DNA from: Treponemataceae bacterium
GTDB taxonomy: Bacteria > Spirochaetota > Spirochaetia > Treponematales > Treponemataceae
Direction of reading: 5' to 3'
Assembly: GCA_024402495.1 (NCBI GenBank)
Contig: JAKSTR010000021.1
Coordinates: forward strand, 1-38,800
DNA length: 38,800 bases
Numbering within the stretch: position 1 is the stretch's first letter; every line of letters begins with the position of its first letter. Of this stretch, positions 213 through 7,143 are shown piece after piece. A model generated the notes under the pieces. The model worked only from the letters and a program-made list of their open reading frames with translations, was not told where the DNA came from and did no database searches. Both the position numbers and the translations under genes were made by a program.

Positions 213-1025
213 ATGATGAAACCATTTGAAGAACTGGCTTTTTACGACGACTTTATGTTCGGGCAGATAATGCAGGACAGGGAAATCTGCAGGACGGTGC
301 TGGAGATTCTGCTGGGCATAAAAATAGACCGGCTGGAATACCCGGAAGTGCAGAAAATCATAGCGCCCTTTTACACCACAAAGGGCGTGCGCTACGACGT
401 TTATGTGGAAGGCGGAAAGCGCGTGTACGATGTGGAAATTCAGAACGCAACCGAGCCGAACATCGGCAAGCGCACGCGGTTTTACCAGAGCATGCTGGAC
501 GTAGTTGCCCTGATGCGCGGACAGAACTACGAAGAACTGAAAGAAAGCATAATAATATTCCTCTGCCGCTACGACCCTTTCAAAAAGGGCATTCCGTGCT
601 ATACTGTGGAACGTAAATGCAGGGAAGACGGCAGCATACGGCTGAACGACGAAGCGACGCTGTACGTATTCAACTGCAGGGCATACCAGAACGCCCAGAG
701 CAGCGAGCTTAAAGGCTTTTTAAAGTATATAGAATGCGGCAAAGCCGAAACAGACTTTACCCGGAGGTTACAGAAGATGGTAGAAATAAAGATAGGAAAC
801 GAAGTAATTAAAAACGCATACCTTTCGTGGAGCCTTGCAGAACACGATGCCATCCGCAAGGGCAGAGTAGAAGGCTTGGCTGAAGGTATAAGTAAAGGCG
901 AACAAAAAAATAAACTTGCAAACGCCAGAAACCTGCTTGCCATGAAGGTTCTTACCAACGAACAGATAGCCCAGGCTGTGGATTTGCCGCTGGAAACGGT
1001 AGAAAATCTGGCAAAGCAGCTGTAA
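213..1025 (+). CDS. Rpn family PD-(D/E)XK nuclease / transposase-like protein
   Basis: This 270-aa protein matches the Rpn (recombination-promoting nuclease, 'PD-(D/E)XK family transposase') pattern. The nuclease core is N-terminal, with an acidic residue in RYDVYV (about D62) and a D-V-E-I-Q motif (E75, Q77). A charged, Gly-rich linker (GRVEGLAEGISKGEQ) leads to a C-terminal HTH-like segment (LTNEQIAQAVDLPLETVENL). Family members are DNA endonucleases linked to RecA-independent recombination and, in E. coli, to phage defence. The ATG pair at 213/216 is chosen because GGAGA lies at 206-210; a TTG at 183 is also open. The gene stands alone, ends before a hairpin-rich spacer and terminator, and contains a second in-frame ribosome-binding site (see 777-1025). 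Despite its usual name it is not flanked by transposon ends. Confidence 0.85.
   Translation: MMKPFEELAFYDDFMFGQIMQDREICRTVLEILLGIKIDRLEYPEVQKIIAPFYTTKGVRYDVYVEGGKRVYDVEIQNATEPNIGKRTRFYQSMLDVVALMRGQNYEELKESIIIFLCRYDPFKKGIPCYTVERKCREDGSIRLNDEATLYVFNCRAYQNAQSSELKGFLKYIECGKAETDFTRRLQKMVEIKIGNEVIKNAYLSWSLAEHDAIRKGRVEGLAEGISKGEQKNKLANARNLLAMKVLTNEQIAQAVDLPLETVENLAKQL
763..776 (+). promoter_or_regulatory. Internal Shine-Dalgarno within the rpn gene
   Basis: GGAGG at 763-767 is followed by nine bases and then an in-frame ATG at 777. This site is stronger than the one serving the full-length start. It lies at the boundary between the nuclease domain and the C-terminal domain. Confidence 0.55.
777..1025 (+). 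CDS. Candidate short C-terminal Rpn product (RpnS-like)
   Basis: Translation from the internal ATG would give an 82-aa protein consisting only of the C-terminal linker and HTH-like domain (MVEIKIGNE... to ...ENLAKQL), in the same frame as the full protein. In E. coli, several rpn genes are known to produce such intragenic C-terminal proteins, which bind and inhibit the full-length toxic nuclease. The same layout here is inferred from the GGAGG site, its spacing and its position at the domain boundary. Expression is not shown by the sequence alone. Confidence 0.45.
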   Translation: MVEIKIGNEVIKNAYLSWSLAEHDAIRKGRVEGLAEGISKGEQKNKLANARNLLAMKVLTNEQIAQAVDLPLETVENLAKQL

Positions 1026-1265: not shown

Positions 1266-2762
1266 ATGAGTTTATTTACTTACTTTATGACATATCTTGT
1301 CTGCATTTCTTTTTACGGCGTGTTTTTTCTTCGTATTTTTCATTACGTATTCATTTATCAGGATCCGGTACAAATTCCTTTAGGCTGCGGAACAGCCGTT
1401 GGCTTAACGATAACACTTTGCGCCATCGTGGGCGTAATTCAAAAGAAAATAATCAGGCATTTTGAACAGGCACTAAAAGCAAATGATTTTGCAAAAGCAC
1501 AGGAAAGCTATAACAAATTCAATATGCCTGTTGCCTGTATTTACGCCCTGGGCTTTTTTGTTGGCGTAGGCGGCACCAACATAATAGAAAGCATTACCGG
1601 CAAAATTGAATTTGATGCCGTGGTTTTTGTAATTATGCTGCTGCAGGGAATAGCCGTAGGTTTTTTGGGCTATACGCTGACCATTTACAAGGTGAAAATG
1701 GGACGCATGGCAGACATGCTGATAAAAGCCGGCGTTAGGGAACTGAACACAAAAATAAATTCTACGCTGAATGTGTCTGTTTTTGCGTGCATTCTTTTAA
1801 GCATAACAAGCTTTATGAGCGTTCCAATCGGAATGCTGAAAAACCCTGCCGCCAGCCCGATGATAAAATTTTCCGTTTACTGCGCCATTGCCTTTATAAT
1901 GACCGGCGCAACCTGCGTTTTGTGCTACACCATGCTGGCAAACTCCATGCAGAAACGCGACCAGACCCTTAAACACCATCTGTACGAACAGACCCAGACA
2001 CTTGCAGATGCGGCAAAAGATTCTGCGGCAAGCGGACAGGAACAGAGCGCAGCCGTAAAGGAAATTGTTGCTACGGTAGAAGACAACAACAATTTAAGCT
2101 GTAACATTCAGCAGAAACTTTCTGACGTTACGGGGCTTGCAAATAAATCGCGGGATGACGTTACCAGCGGCATTGAATATTTGCAGCAGAACGTAAAGGA
2201 CCTGATGGAAATAACAGAATGCAACTTGCAGACAATAGAAGGCATAAAAGATTTGTGCAGCAAGGTTGCAAACATCTGGGATATAGTAACCCTTATTACG
2301 GATGTTGCGGCACAGGCAAAAATAATAGCCTTTAATGCAGAACTTGAAGCAAGCGCGGCTGGTCCTGCCGGTGCAAATTTCCATATCGTGGCAACGGAAG
2401 TAAGGCGGCTTTCGGACAACATTATCGACAGCTCGCTTGAAGTAAAGCAGCATATTGCAGAAGTGCAGAAGTCGGCAGACCAGCTTATTGCAGCAAGCAA
2501 GCAGGGCAGTGAAAAAATCAATTCCGGCTATCAGAATGCAAAGGAACTTGAACAGCGTTTTTCCAGCATAAAATCATCTTCCGAAGCTACGGCAACGGCA
2601 TCGCTTGACATGAATGACTACATTTACCAGATGACGGCGGCAAGCCAGCAGATTTTGGTAACAATGAAGCAGATTGCCGGCAACATTGAAAGTTTCAGTC
2701 AAAGCACCAGCAATGTTTCCCAGTCATCGGAATCGCTAAAAGATATAGCATCTTTGCTTTAG
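1266..2762 (+). CDS. Methyl-accepting chemotaxis-like membrane protein with degenerate signalling tip
   Basis: The 498-aa protein has about six N-terminal membrane helices (roughly residues 5-29, 38-58, 86-103, 115-140, 166-185, 200-222) and no large periplasmic ligand domain. A long cytoplasmic coiled coil follows. Around residues 345-385 it carries a recognisable MCP hairpin (IIAFNAELEASAAG...IVATEVRRLSDN). The tip is diverged: the canonical ARAGE becomes SAAGP, so the Arg (Tsr R388) and following Glu are lost, and Tsr F373 is replaced by Ala. The Asn and Glu corresponding to N381 and E385 remain. It likely senses a membrane or cytoplasmic signal, but normal CheA/CheW coupling is uncertain. 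The ATG has only a weak upstream AGAAG. It is monocistronic between two terminators. Confidence 0.8.
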   Translation: MSLFTYFMTYLVCISFYGVFFLRIFHYVFIYQDPVQIPLGCGTAVGLTITLCAIVGVIQKKIIRHFEQALKANDFAKAQESYNKFNMPVACIYALGFFVGVGGTNIIESITGKIEFDAVVFVIMLLQGIAVGFLGYTLTIYKVKMGRMADMLIKAGVRELNTKINSTLNVSVFACILLSITSFMSVPIGMLKNPAASPMIKFSVYCAIAFIMTGATCVLCYTMLANSMQKRDQTLKHHLYEQTQTLADAAKDSAASGQEQSAAVKEIVATVEDNNNLSCNIQQKLSDVTGLANKSRDDVTSGIEYLQQNVKDLMEITECNLQTIEGIKDLCSKVANIWDIVTLITDVAAQAKIIAFNAELEASAAGPAGANFHIVATEVRRLSDNIIDSSLEVKQHIAEVQKSADQLIAASKQGSEKINSGYQNAKELEQRFSSIKSSSEATATASLDMNDYIYQMTAASQQILVTMKQIAGNIESFSQSTSNVSQSSESLKDIASLL

Positions 2763-3238: not shown

Positions 3239-4828
3239 TTAGCATGCTTTATATAATTTGTCAGTATTTTCAAGATACTCTACAAATCCTTCTATAGAAT
3301 AGTCTCTGATAATCAATTTTTTTGTAAATTTTACGTACTCGATCTGACGCTTAGAATCAGGGTAAATTGAAGGTGCAGTAAAAATAACTTGAGAATCAAT
3401 TTTATGATCTTGAATAAAAGTTTCTAGGTGCCTTTCTATCGGCCATATTTCCATCATTGTTTGGGTTCGACCTTCTGCCATTGTTACTTCTACAAGAATA
3501 CCTTTATTTTCTTCATAGCATTCTATATCGCCTTTATTACCGCCAGCAGTAGAAGTCGGAAGCCCTGTATCATCACAAGAATAATTTGGTTTTACAGTAA
3601 TATTTGGAAGTTTTGATTTGATAGCTAGAGCTGTTAAGAATTCCAAGCGAACGGGGGCTGACAAGAATTTAAGAATATCATCTTTTGAGGGTTTTCTTGT
3701 AGAGAGATTTTTTAGTTCCTGTTTTATAGAATCCCAATTATATGTTTTTGTCCATTCAGAAAGTAAATCATTGGTTTGTTTTGTTGATACAGTTTCTGCT
3801 TCAAGTGAAATAAGGTTTTTGTCTATAGATGACATATATTTAAAATATTCATATTCATCTGTGTAATGTTCGTAATCGCCATATTCCTCAAGAATGTAAT
3901 CTACTTTTTTATCTTCATTATGATTTATATCAATGAAACGACCGGCACCACGTAACGAAATAAGTCCTGACATACGCATTTTACGAATAAATTCATCCGT
4001 ATAATCAGTCATCAAAGAATCTGTTTTGAATTTCTTAAAATTTCCACCCATGATTTCGTTCAAACAAATATCTGATATTACTTCATCACTTGGTGTAAAA
4101 CCATAATCTTCACGTAATTGCTTAATTCTTAGGAAGAGATTTGCTGCATTGTTATCTTTCCAAAACAATAATAAAGGTAGTTCTCTTCTGGAAATTCCTT
4201 TGCCATTGTCAAAATTAATCAACCGAATTGTTTGTAATAATAAAAGAAGAGGAATGTTGTCATTTAAAACTTTTACAAACGGATTTGATCTTTGTGACCG
4301 TGCTAAAGATTGAAGAAAAACATTCTGTTCTCGTTCTGGTTGATTGAATTCTACTGTAAGTAAACTATTTTCTTCTGTTACTTTAACTATATCTACAAGA
4401 ATATTTCCGAGCTCTGAAAATTCAATTTTTTTACCCGTCATAAAATATACAAAACCAAATTCTTTTGCTAAATCAAAAATTGTGGCAAATCTGGAAGGAT
4501 ATCCCCAAGCGAAACCTGCTTCTTTATGTTTTTGCGGATTGTCGATTTGTATTTTTTTTGCATCTTTTTTTGAAATAAGAGAGACGGCAAATTCTCCTTT
4601 GGGAGTTTGCTTCCAGATTTCAGCTATATTTTTCGGAACTTTCATAGGTCTATATAATCCGTATCGAATTAATTCACCGACTATTTCAGTTGCTAACTCA
4701 TCTGTAAGAATTTTTCCGTCATATTTCTTTAAAATAAACAAATTAAGTTTAATTCGTTCAGGGTTTCTTACAGTTGTCGTATAGAGCAATGGTTTATATT
4801 CTGCATTTCTTTCTCTAGTTTGATTCAT
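3239..4828 (-). CDS. AlwI/BstNBI-family type IIS restriction endonuclease
   Basis: The 529-aa protein begins with a segment (TTTVRNPERIKLNLFILK) that aligns by eye with the start of N.BstNBI-type enzymes. Near the C-terminus it has the family's catalytic block: STAGGNKGDIEC (D434), then LVEVTMAEGRTQ (E447-V-T449) and a following IERHL. D and E-x-T are the PD-(D/E)XK-type catalytic residues. The AlwI/BstNBI family recognises short asymmetric sites (GGATC, GAGTC) and cuts outside them; the exact site here cannot be read. The start ATG lies 14 bases inside the upstream methylase gene. A perfect AAGGAGG (4844-4850) sits 15 bases away, an unusually long spacing. It is last in the operon, so methylases are made first. 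Confidence 0.85.
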   Translation of the reverse strand: MNQTRERNAEYKPLLYTTTVRNPERIKLNLFILKKYDGKILTDELATEIVGELIRYGLYRPMKVPKNIAEIWKQTPKGEFAVSLISKKDAKKIQIDNPQKHKEAGFAWGYPSRFATIFDLAKEFGFVYFMTGKKIEFSELGNILVDIVKVTEENSLLTVEFNQPEREQNVFLQSLARSQRSNPFVKVLNDNIPLLLLLQTIRLINFDNGKGISRRELPLLLFWKDNNAANLFLRIKQLREDYGFTPSDEVISDICLNEIMGGNFKKFKTDSLMTDYTDEFIRKMRMSGLISLRGAGRFIDINHNEDKKVDYILEEYGDYEHYTDEYEYFKYMSSIDKNLISLEAETVSTKQTNDLLSEWTKTYNWDSIKQELKNLSTRKPSKDDILKFLSAPVRLEFLTALAIKSKLPNITVKPNYSCDDTGLPTSTAGGNKGDIECYEENKGILVEVTMAEGRTQTMMEIWPIERHLETFIQDHKIDSQVIFTAPSIYPDSKRQIEYVKFTKKLIIRDYSIEGFVEYLENTDKLYKAC

Positions 4829-5729
4829 AATTTGTTATTAAAACCTCCTTAAAGGATTTTATGCTGTTGTCATGATAATTTATGTAATTACTTTTTATTG
4901 GATATACATTATATTTTTTTGCCCATTCAAGTAATCTCGTATTCTCTTTTCCTTTGTAGCTTACTACATTCGACATCGCAAATTTAATTTTTCTCTTAGT
5001 GAAATCATCAAGTAAAGATAGCATTTTGATATCATCTTCCTGATTCCATAACTTGTTATATTCGCTTGCTGTAATTAAATATGGTGGATCGAGATATACG
5101 AAATCATTATTTTCAAATTCAATTGAACTTAAAAATAAAGAAAAATCTTCATTACTCCATACAATATTTTTTTTATTAACAAGTGTTATATAGTTTTCCA
5201 AAGCATCATGAACGTTTTTATTATAGTCAACATTTCCAACGGGAACATTATATTTACCTTCTTTGTTAAATCGGAGCATTCGGTTGAACCCATATATTAA
5301 CAATAAGTACAAGATAACAGAATCCTTTTTGGTTCCGTTATTATAATCCTTTTTCATTTTATCAAAGAATGTTTTATTATATTTTGCAAAATAAGTTTTT
5401 TTAAATTGATTTCTTAAATCCTGTGGAACAGAATTTTCAATGAAGGAGCATGATAGATTATAATTACTTATTTCTTTAAAGAGTTTTTTTTCTAATTCAT
5501 TAATATCTGTAAAGGATGATAAGAAAGAATGCAATGACATAATATTGGCATCAATATCATTTTCGAGAAAAATTTTTGCTTCTATATTTAAAAAAACAGA
5601 CCCGCCACCTACAAATGGTTCAATAAACTTATTAATATTCTGAGGAAAATAGAGTTTCATTTCATTAATTAACTTGTATTTGTCTCCAGTATAAAACATT
5701 GGAGATCTTATAACTGTTTCTTTTTTCAT
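4815..5729 (-). CDS. D12-class (Dam-like) DNA adenine-N6 methyltransferase
   Basis: The 304-aa protein is a compact Dam-type methylase. The N-terminal RSPMFYTGDKYKL and FIEPFVGGGSVFLN form the SAM-binding motifs (the Gly-rich loop near residue 40), an NDID acidic motif follows, and the catalytic LDPPY is at about D214. A conserved MSNV follows. It transfers methyl from SAM to adenine. Paired with the other methylase it would protect both strands of an asymmetric recognition site. Its ATG overlaps the stop of the upstream methylase in an ATGA, implying translational coupling, and its 3' end overlaps the nuclease gene by 14 bases. Confidence 0.92.
   Translation of the reverse strand: MKKETVIRSPMFYTGDKYKLINEMKLYFPQNINKFIEPFVGGGSVFLNIEAKIFLENDIDANIMSLHSFLSSFTDINELEKKLFKEISNYNLSCSFIENSVPQDLRNQFKKTYFAKYNKTFFDKMKKDYNNGTKKDSVILYLLLIYGFNRMLRFNKEGKYNVPVGNVDYNKNVHDALENYITLVNKKNIVWSNEDFSLFLSSIEFENNDFVYLDPPYLITASEYNKLWNQEDDIKMLSLLDDFTKRKIKFAMSNVVSYKGKENTRLLEWAKKYNVYPIKSNYINYHDNSIKSFKEVLITNYESN
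4844..4850 (-). promoter_or_regulatory. Distant Shine-Dalgarno for the restriction nuclease
   Basis: AAGGAGG on the minus strand is the only strong ribosome site for the nuclease gene, but it is 15 nt from the ATG at 4828. An in-frame TAA lies between them and no better start exists. The long spacing may deliberately keep nuclease translation below that of the methylases. Confidence 0.45.
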
Positions 5730-7054
5730 TTTTTTACTTTAGTAATAAATAGCAGTTCCTGATGATTGTTTAAATCTGTTTTTCCGGCGTTAAAGAATCT
5801 GTAATCTTTTGAAAATACTTTTGTTTCTCCTTTTCTATTCAAAATTTCTTCAATTTCATCTAATGTGATTTTATTCTTGGAACTTCCACTTTTTGAGTTG
5901 TAAGTATTGTTATAAGATACTACTAGGTATTTTGTATCTAATTTCTCTATTAAATCAGCGAATGCTGATGGAGCAGATACAGTACAATATTTGCTCATAT
6001 TTTCTACTGGGGGTTTCATTGCGACACCGCGAAGAACAGGTTTATTCCATTTAACTAATGTTTCATAAACATGGTAAAATCGGCAATATTGTCTGGAGTT
6101 ATAAGGAGGATCGATATAAACTAAATCAGATTTGATTTTTTCAGCAAGGATATTTGAATCTTCTTGGTGAATTTCAATATTCTTACATTCATGAACATCG
6201 ATTAAACGAATATAAAAATTAGCTTTTTTGATGGGTTTTTTTATATAAGCTTCAAAATGCCCAACGGTATTTGCGTGTTTATCAATGTTATAAATCAAGG
6301 TTGCTAATAAAATAGCGTATTCTTTCTCTGTCAGATTTGGTTTTGAATCTTCAATATCTTGACGGATAAATCCTATCTTTTTAGCTAAATCATTTTCAAA
6401 ATATTTATCTCCAAAGTTTTCTGAAAAATAATTTTCCTTAAGGCTATTTGCCTCTAAAGAGTTGTAATAGTTTATTTTTTTTAAGATTTTTTCTTTATCC
6501 CATGTAGTAGGAGAAAAAAAAGCTTCGTATATATAATGATTTGAATATAAAGTGTCATTGACAATAACTTTGCTATAGAGTTTTAGCATTCGTTTTGCAA
6601 CAACACCAGTTCCAGTAAAAATATCAACGGCAGTTTTTACATTTTCGGTTTCTTTTTCAATTATTTCAAAAATCCAATTTATAAGCTTTGCTTTACTACC
6701 AATGTAACGTCTACTTTCTAATGGGATAGAGCTACCTAAAATATTTGTATTTTGAGTTAGGTAGTTCTCCTTAGAATCAATTTTTTCTTTCACTATCAAA
6801 AGAGTTTCCTCTGGATATTGTAAGGAAGAAGCTTCATTAAGAAGTTTGTCGCTATCTCTCTGCTTTATAAGGTCTGTGGAATCAAGATTGTATAATTCTG
6901 AAAATTTAAGTAATAAATCATCGGTTGGCAGTCTGGTTCCTGATTCAATTTTTGAGAGTAGACTTTCTTTTATGCCTATTTGCTCTTGCAAGTCTAATAA
7001 AGTGTATCCATTTTCTTCTCTGAGATTTTTTAAAATTGTTCCAGTATACATAAA
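5726..7054 (-). CDS. HTH-XRE fused D12-class adenine-N6 methyltransferase
   Basis: The protein (442 aa from the ATG at 7054; a TTG at 7102 would add 16 residues) starts directly with an XRE helix-turn-helix (LKNLREENGYTLLDLQEQIG, then SLLSKIESGTRLP). A linker follows, then an adenine methylase with VDIFTGTGVV as SAM motif I and YIDPPYNSRQY (D315) as catalytic motif IV. It is the first gene of the operon. The ATG start is preferred because the HTH begins at once; the Shine-Dalgarno is weak. The HTH either adds DNA binding to the methylase or acts as the operon's controller, since no separate C protein is present. Confidence 0.9.
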   Translation of the reverse strand, partial: FMYTGTILKNLREENGYTLLDLQEQIGIKESLLSKIESGTRLPTDDLLLKFSELYNLDSTDLIKQRDSDKLLNEASSLQYPEETLLIVKEKIDSKENYLTQNTNILGSSIPLESRRYIGSKAKLINWIFEIIEKETENVKTAVDIFTGTGVVAKRMLKLYSKVIVNDTLYSNHYIYEAFFSPTTWDKEKILKKINYYNSLEANSLKENYFSENFGDKYFENDLAKKIGFIRQDIEDSKPNLTEKEYAILLATLIYNIDKHANTVGHFEAYIKKPIKKANFYIRLIDVHECKNIEIHQEDSNILAEKIKSDLVYIDPPYNSRQYCRFYHVYETLVKWNKPVLRGVAMKPPVENMSKYCTVSAPSAFADLIEKLDTKYLVVSYNNTYNSKSGSSKNKITLDEIEEILNRKGETKVFSKDYRFFNAGKTDLNNHQELLFITKVKK

Positions 7055-7143
7055 ATTATTCCAGTTGTTGTCAAATTTATGTAAAAATTGATAAATATTC
7101 AATGGTTTTTTTTTCGAAAATTCTTGAAATTAGACTATCCAAT

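Follow-up and report, generated by a model that had tools for sequence, protein, structure and literature searches.

The window analysed here, which is the whole stretch of 38,800 nucleotides of a contig from a gut spirochaete (Treponemataceae), carries an intact rpn gene close to its 5′ end, preceded by only 212 bases. The features of the gene and its surroundings, in window coordinates, are as follows:

206-209, + strand: Shine-Dalgarno (SD) sequence GGAG of the full-length start, 6 nt 5′ of ATG 216; duplex -6.4 kcal/mol
213-1025, + strand: rpn gene with RpnL-like full-length product (TIGR01784, PF12784, open frame)
255-590, + strand: PD-(D/E)XK nuclease domain, residues 15-126 by PF12784, with the core extending to about residue 160 in the structural model
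396-443, + strand: catalytic residues of the PD-(D/E)XK type, D62 ... E75-x-Q77 (D73 in most)
763-767, + strand: internal SD GGAGG in codons CGG AGG (Arg184-Arg185), read from the sequence and from nucleotide-level selection
777-779, + strand: internal in-frame ATG (Met189), read from the sequence
777-1025, + strand: predicted RpnS-like short product of 82 aa, one long helix and two short ones, helix-turn-helix-like
861-896, + strand: four-residue repeats GRVE GLAE GISK in the long helix, with lengths varying by multiples of four
1190-1214, + strand: terminator-like hairpin followed by a T-run, a pattern match only, 165 bases past the stop
3239-7102, - strand: type II restriction-modification set, an AlwI-like endonuclease and two D12-class adenine methyltransferases

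The full-length product has 270 residues if translation begins at ATG 213, or 269 if it begins at ATG 216, and ends at TAA 1023-1025. It scores 108 bits against TIGR01784 (cut-off 52.1) and 35.4 bits against PF12784 (cut-off 27.4), and the catalytic residues D62, E75 and Q77 are invariant across 56 homologues. PADLOC returned no convincing model for the gene (E 0.009). The full-length start would pair with the anti-SD at -5.2 kcal/mol for ATG 213 and at -6.4 for ATG 216. The anti-SD end of the 16S rRNA is absent from the assemblies of the window genome and its congeners; in four other genomes of the same family it is the usual TGGATCACCTCCTT. Terminator-like hairpin patterns such as the one downstream of the gene were found three times, with 1.8 expected. 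At 1266-2762 (+) lies the gene of a membrane protein that has a methyl-accepting chemotaxis signalling domain.

Inside the gene, the preliminary description had pointed to a GGAGG at 763-767 and, after a nine-base spacer (768-776), an ATG at 777 in frame with the ORF 213-1025; all three elements were confirmed, as was the 82-residue length of the predicted product (coding stretch 777-1022). At the sequence level, an in-frame SD and start codon thus stand before the tail, and for the GGAGGT of the site the computed duplex with the anti-SD is -10.2 kcal/mol. Taken by itself, the window gene is only suggestive of more than chance, as 7% of synonymous shuffles equal the strength of its site (p about 0.07). 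A background rate drawn from the window alone gave one site at -7 kcal/mol and none at -10 among the 181 internal in-frame ATGs of its 20 other long ORFs. RNA folding around 763-777 showed nothing unusual (z -0.24).

It had also been claimed that the internal site is better than the full-length one, as expected if an inhibitor has to be in excess. This holds for the window gene (-10.2 against -6.4 kcal/mol) and fails for the family, where the medians are -7.7 (internal) and -8.4 kcal/mol (full-length) and the internal site is the stronger one in 35 of 106 genes against 58 of 106 for the full-length site. We therefore reject a general superiority of the internal site, and an excess of inhibitor, if there is any, must arise elsewhere, e.g., from a separate transcript. 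In E. coli, such a short transcript with its own promoter exists. Our scan of the window gene found no promoter-like (sigma-70-like) sequence within it, with the caveat that spirochaete promoters may differ.

The AlphaFold2 model of the full-length protein is confident (mean pLDDT 90.9). Past the nuclease core it places helices at 164-175 and 181-194, a 48-residue helix at 197-244 and two short helices at 249-256 and 260-269. One statement of the preliminary description, that ATG 777 sits exactly at the boundary of the nuclease domain, has to be corrected accordingly: the core ends near residue 160, some way before Met189, which falls within helix 181-194, with the long helix starting eight residues further on. 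Shedu and McrC are among the PD-(D/E)XK nucleases to which the nuclease part shows similarity, but only at modest Z, and a Foldseek search against the PDB gave no confident match for either the tail or the whole protein. The window tail alone matched no solved structure; only the family profile, built from 57 tails, found one, that of RpnA-S (7TH0, a crystal structure; E 3.6e-7), and this match aligns the GEQ motif. By it the tail family is homologous to RpnA-S, and the modelled tail has the three-helix fold with a long first helix. The first tail helix is also hypervariable in units of four residues, since tail lengths differ by 0, 4, 8, 12, 16 or 20 residues in 74 of 80 close homologue pairs.

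These properties bring the gene close to a known system. Zhong et al. (2023) detected short products from five rpn genes of E. coli K-12 and RpnS expressed from one gene of C. difficile; the C. difficile rpn, placed in E. coli, lost its short product once the predicted internal SD and start were mutated (PMC10327210), and by its published description that gene is among the closest known systems. With RpnA-L/RpnA-S and the other four K-12 rpn genes, the window gene and its relatives share the PD-(D/E)XK N-terminus, the in-frame SD and ATG, the homologous tail, the four-residue length variation and the occasional stand-alone tail genes downstream. They differ from RpnA in the extent of the short form, which has 49 residues and starts about 9 before the GEQ motif in E. 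coli, while the predicted product of the window gene has 82, starts 40 before GEQ and includes a further conserved segment. They differ also in that the start position varies here between clades (177, 189, 195, 204, 206).

The short protein could be made and yet not be an inhibitor, acting instead as a stoichiometric partner of the full-length protein or as a helix-turn-helix regulator of rpn expression. The modelled tail indeed resembles small helix-turn-helix folds (TrpR at Z 6.6, with the DNA-binding parts of resolvase and DeoR lower), and many antitoxins regulate their own operons; however, a Z under 8 may reflect only a common arrangement, and the roles of regulator and inhibitor are mutually compatible. 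Cas10d provides a precedent for a partner that arises by internal initiation (cited in PMC10327210). Cas10d/Cas11d is likewise a gene within a gene, in frame and with a C-terminal product, but there the product is a required partner rather than an inhibitor, and the sequence is unrelated. Against both roles stands the homologous E. coli tail, which blocks toxicity and DNA cleavage (PMC10327210), and we consider this explanation unlikely.

The case for internal initiation itself comes from the relatives of the gene, gathered from contigs of the genus, the family and named genomes, of which 114 full-length homologues below 92% identity were kept. In all 114, an in-frame ATG falls within the stretch that corresponds to residues 180-212. 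In this linker the SD duplex reaches -7 kcal/mol or lower in 74 of 114 and -5 or lower in 104 of 114, leaving 10 with a weak SD only; synonymous-codon shuffles within each gene gave 21.4 +/- 3.7 genes at -7 or lower, with a maximum of 34 in 200 shuffles. Under a strict definition (exact 5-nt SD, spacing 5-10), the site was found in 68 genes against 22.1 +/- 3.7 in shuffles, and ATGs outside the linker showed no excess by the same definition (24 against 23.2). Strong sites are concentrated in the ten-residue bins at 180, 190 and 200 (24, 9 and 41 genes), every other bin holding 0-3, and the other two frames of the same stretch have a strong site in 10 and 3 genes, as opposed to 74 in frame. Sites of the 206 type have long spacers (12-13 nt), and the AAGGAG-ATG of E. 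coli rpnA, our positive control because its internal start has been demonstrated in published work, scored -8.3 kcal/mol, as expected. Since the homologues are related and not independent, the shuffle counts and z-scores are not to be read as p-values. By these comparisons, the internal site recurs across homologues far beyond chance, which we take as strong sequence-level evidence.

At the letters of the SD, the protein-coding constraint can be separated from the nucleotide one. In the clade of the window, 19 genes encode Arg-Arg at 184-185, and the codon pair contains GGAG in all 19 (CGGAGG in 10, AGGAGG in 5, AGGAGA in 4), where codon usage would predict 17%. Conserved arginines elsewhere in the same 19 genes mostly drift among several codons. 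Where Arg-Gly, Arg-Glu or Lys-Glu replaces Arg-Arg, the codons are AGGGGG, AGGGAG and AAGGAG, respectively. The preliminary description had suggested aligning the homologues to see whether the SD is kept beyond what coding demands, and both this count and the shuffles above (74 against 21.4) indicate that it is.

Where ATG 189 is missing, the site stands at the equivalent of 195, 204 or 206 instead. Among the genes whose 189 site is strong, 0 of 24 have an ATG at 203-206; among the others, 89 of 90 do. In a tree of the nuclease domain alone, six changes of site position are required among strong sites, and three changes for the 189 type. The exchange of 189 for 204 can be followed in three independent pairs, two agreeing and one silent, and with so few pairs on the tree it amounts to a pattern and cannot reach significance. 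Three paralogues in the genome of the window have their site at 204, with TGGAGG or CGGAGG. Beyond the family, a phylum-wide sample of other spirochaete families and groups added 20 genes; 17 of these have a strong site, usually at the position matching residue 177 (e.g., AAAGGAGGATGCT-ATG), and other parts of the gene hold none. Bacillota homologues retained a site in 10 of 10 cases against 3.6 expected. The preliminary description had held that homologues lacking both the SD and the Met at this point would speak against it. Such homologues are literally present in other clades, with their site elsewhere in the linker, and because a replacement exists they strengthen the case. The internal site thus moves between clades and is seldom lost; the roughly 130 relatives compared show that selection preserves, and sometimes relocates, an internal start signal. 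As for copy number, genomes of other spirochaete families (e.g., G252, G271, G264) and two of the same family (G021, G037) hold up to 38 TIGR01784 matches each.

These results bear on the idea of a coincidence, in which only the full-length protein would be made, the GGAGG being a by-product of the Arg-Arg codons and Met189 a requirement of the protein. The single-gene shuffle given above leaves room for it, the clade keeps the Arg-Arg pair at the protein level, and one homologue outside the clade (locus L189) has CGG AGG and lacks the ATG. A by-product of arginine codons would nevertheless hardly account for GGAG in 19 of 19 pairs or for an SD that survives amino-acid changes, nor for the alternative sites in other clades and families and the depletion elsewhere in the gene; we regard a coincidence as very improbable.

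Tails also exist outside full-length genes. Stand-alone copies downstream of rpn genes have been reported (PMC10327210), and several of our loci carry short tail-only ORFs behind an rpn gene, in which translation could first begin at the same ATG that full-length genes carry internally. Examples are L038 (AGGAGTGAGTAT-ATG), L059 (AGGAGCGAGTAT-ATG) and L136, the last one in Treponema ruminis. Not all stand-alone tails need be active, as the start or the SD is gone in some of them (L042, with ATA; L094; L172). In the genus of the window, three of four stand-alone tails differ in tail type from their neighbour, while those of other genera match theirs. Stand-alone tails that immediately follow an rpn gene and are of a type unlike that of this neighbour were located as follows, in locus coordinates:

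L042, 2557-2285, - strand
L059, 2134-1859, - strand
L038, 2576-2319, - strand
L165, 3354-3704, + strand

These four are 39-51% or less identical to the neighbouring tail and 54-74% identical to those of other RpnL proteins. The stand-alone genes, by starting at the same ATGs, count as well against the notion that the SD-like sequence only pauses the ribosome past the nuclease domain, where the sites do lie and where a pause might help folding, for pausing needs no ATG at initiation spacing and would not make SD and ATG shift together between clades, so that we give it next to no credence.

Some loci are broken. In L074 (937-1477, +) and L076 (860-1466, +), the rpn gene is cut at about residue 100, with no catalytic residues nearby, and retains the tail with its internal start; possibly the toxin was lost and the inhibitor kept. 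In L167 (2964-3248, +), the rpn match stops near residue 187 and the tail lies in another open frame, with AGGAGG and ATG intact. A second tail copy in the genome of the window (L016, at the end of contig G000:C27; 93% identity over 43 residues) is interrupted by the contig end, and as many rpn copies lie at contig ends, their number in this assembly is probably underestimated. Another class of stand-alone tail genes, in loci L056, L064 and L072, begins with a different N-terminal segment (MNAKQSLSSIS...) behind a strong SD (ACAGGAGGCAGGACTT-ATG); L064 has two of these ORFs in tandem. It is conceivable, if rather doubtful, that heterotypic tails and truncated loci are antitoxins retained against other RpnL proteins, of the own cell or of incoming DNA, and not spares for the neighbour; under this reading, they would be comparable to the displaced immunity genes of polymorphic toxins.

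What the comparison establishes is the gene family, the internal site, its conservation beyond coding need and its relocation, the homology of the tail and the four-residue variation. The preliminary description had read this as an rpn gene in which an inhibitor-like C-terminal protein is made from a start of its own, and that reading survived every comparative test run. We consider it highly likely that the window gene is an Rpn-type (RpnL/RpnS) intragenic toxin-antitoxin gene. Beyond the conservation of the site, the mechanism is inferred from Zhong et al. (2023). The full frame 213-1025 would yield a PD-(D/E)XK nuclease with a helical tail, and a second ribosome entry at GGAGG 763-767 and ATG 777 would yield the last 82 residues as a separate protein. 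Judging from its E. coli homologues, RpnA-L and RpnA-S, this free tail would use its long helix to bind the tail of the full-length nuclease and keep it inactive, the number of four-residue repeats deciding which tails fit each other. The nuclease would be set free if the pairing failed, perhaps when a phage infects the cell. Likewise predicted from the homologues are translation at 777, toxicity, inhibition and phage defence. The restriction-modification set, in which one D12-class methyltransferase has an N-terminal helix-turn-helix, lies 2 kb from the rpn gene and lends slight support to an anti-phage role.

It had been expected that finding this layout in a spirochaete would extend the system. 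Part of that novelty was already taken: Zhong et al. (2023) reported rpn genes in 34 bacterial phyla and, in the spirochaete Leptospira interrogans, the same four-residue tail variation as in RpnS, and they proposed the generality of the short product (PMC10327210). Our literature search found, in the collection searched, no paper on spirochaete Rpn inhibitors. What is added, as judged from sequence comparison, is evidence of selection on the internal site in two phyla, the relocation of the site and the longer predicted short form (82 against 49 residues). This provides independent nucleotide-level evidence that spirochaetes and Bacillota are both under selection for internal initiation, and that the start site can shift within the linker while the arrangement persists. 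It also offers a simple sequence test for annotating a hidden small protein in many rpn genes labelled “putative transposase”, and natural variants for asking what sets the toxin:inhibitor ratio and the specificity of pairing. Very probably, a toxin and its inhibitor packed in one gene operate throughout the spirochaetes too.
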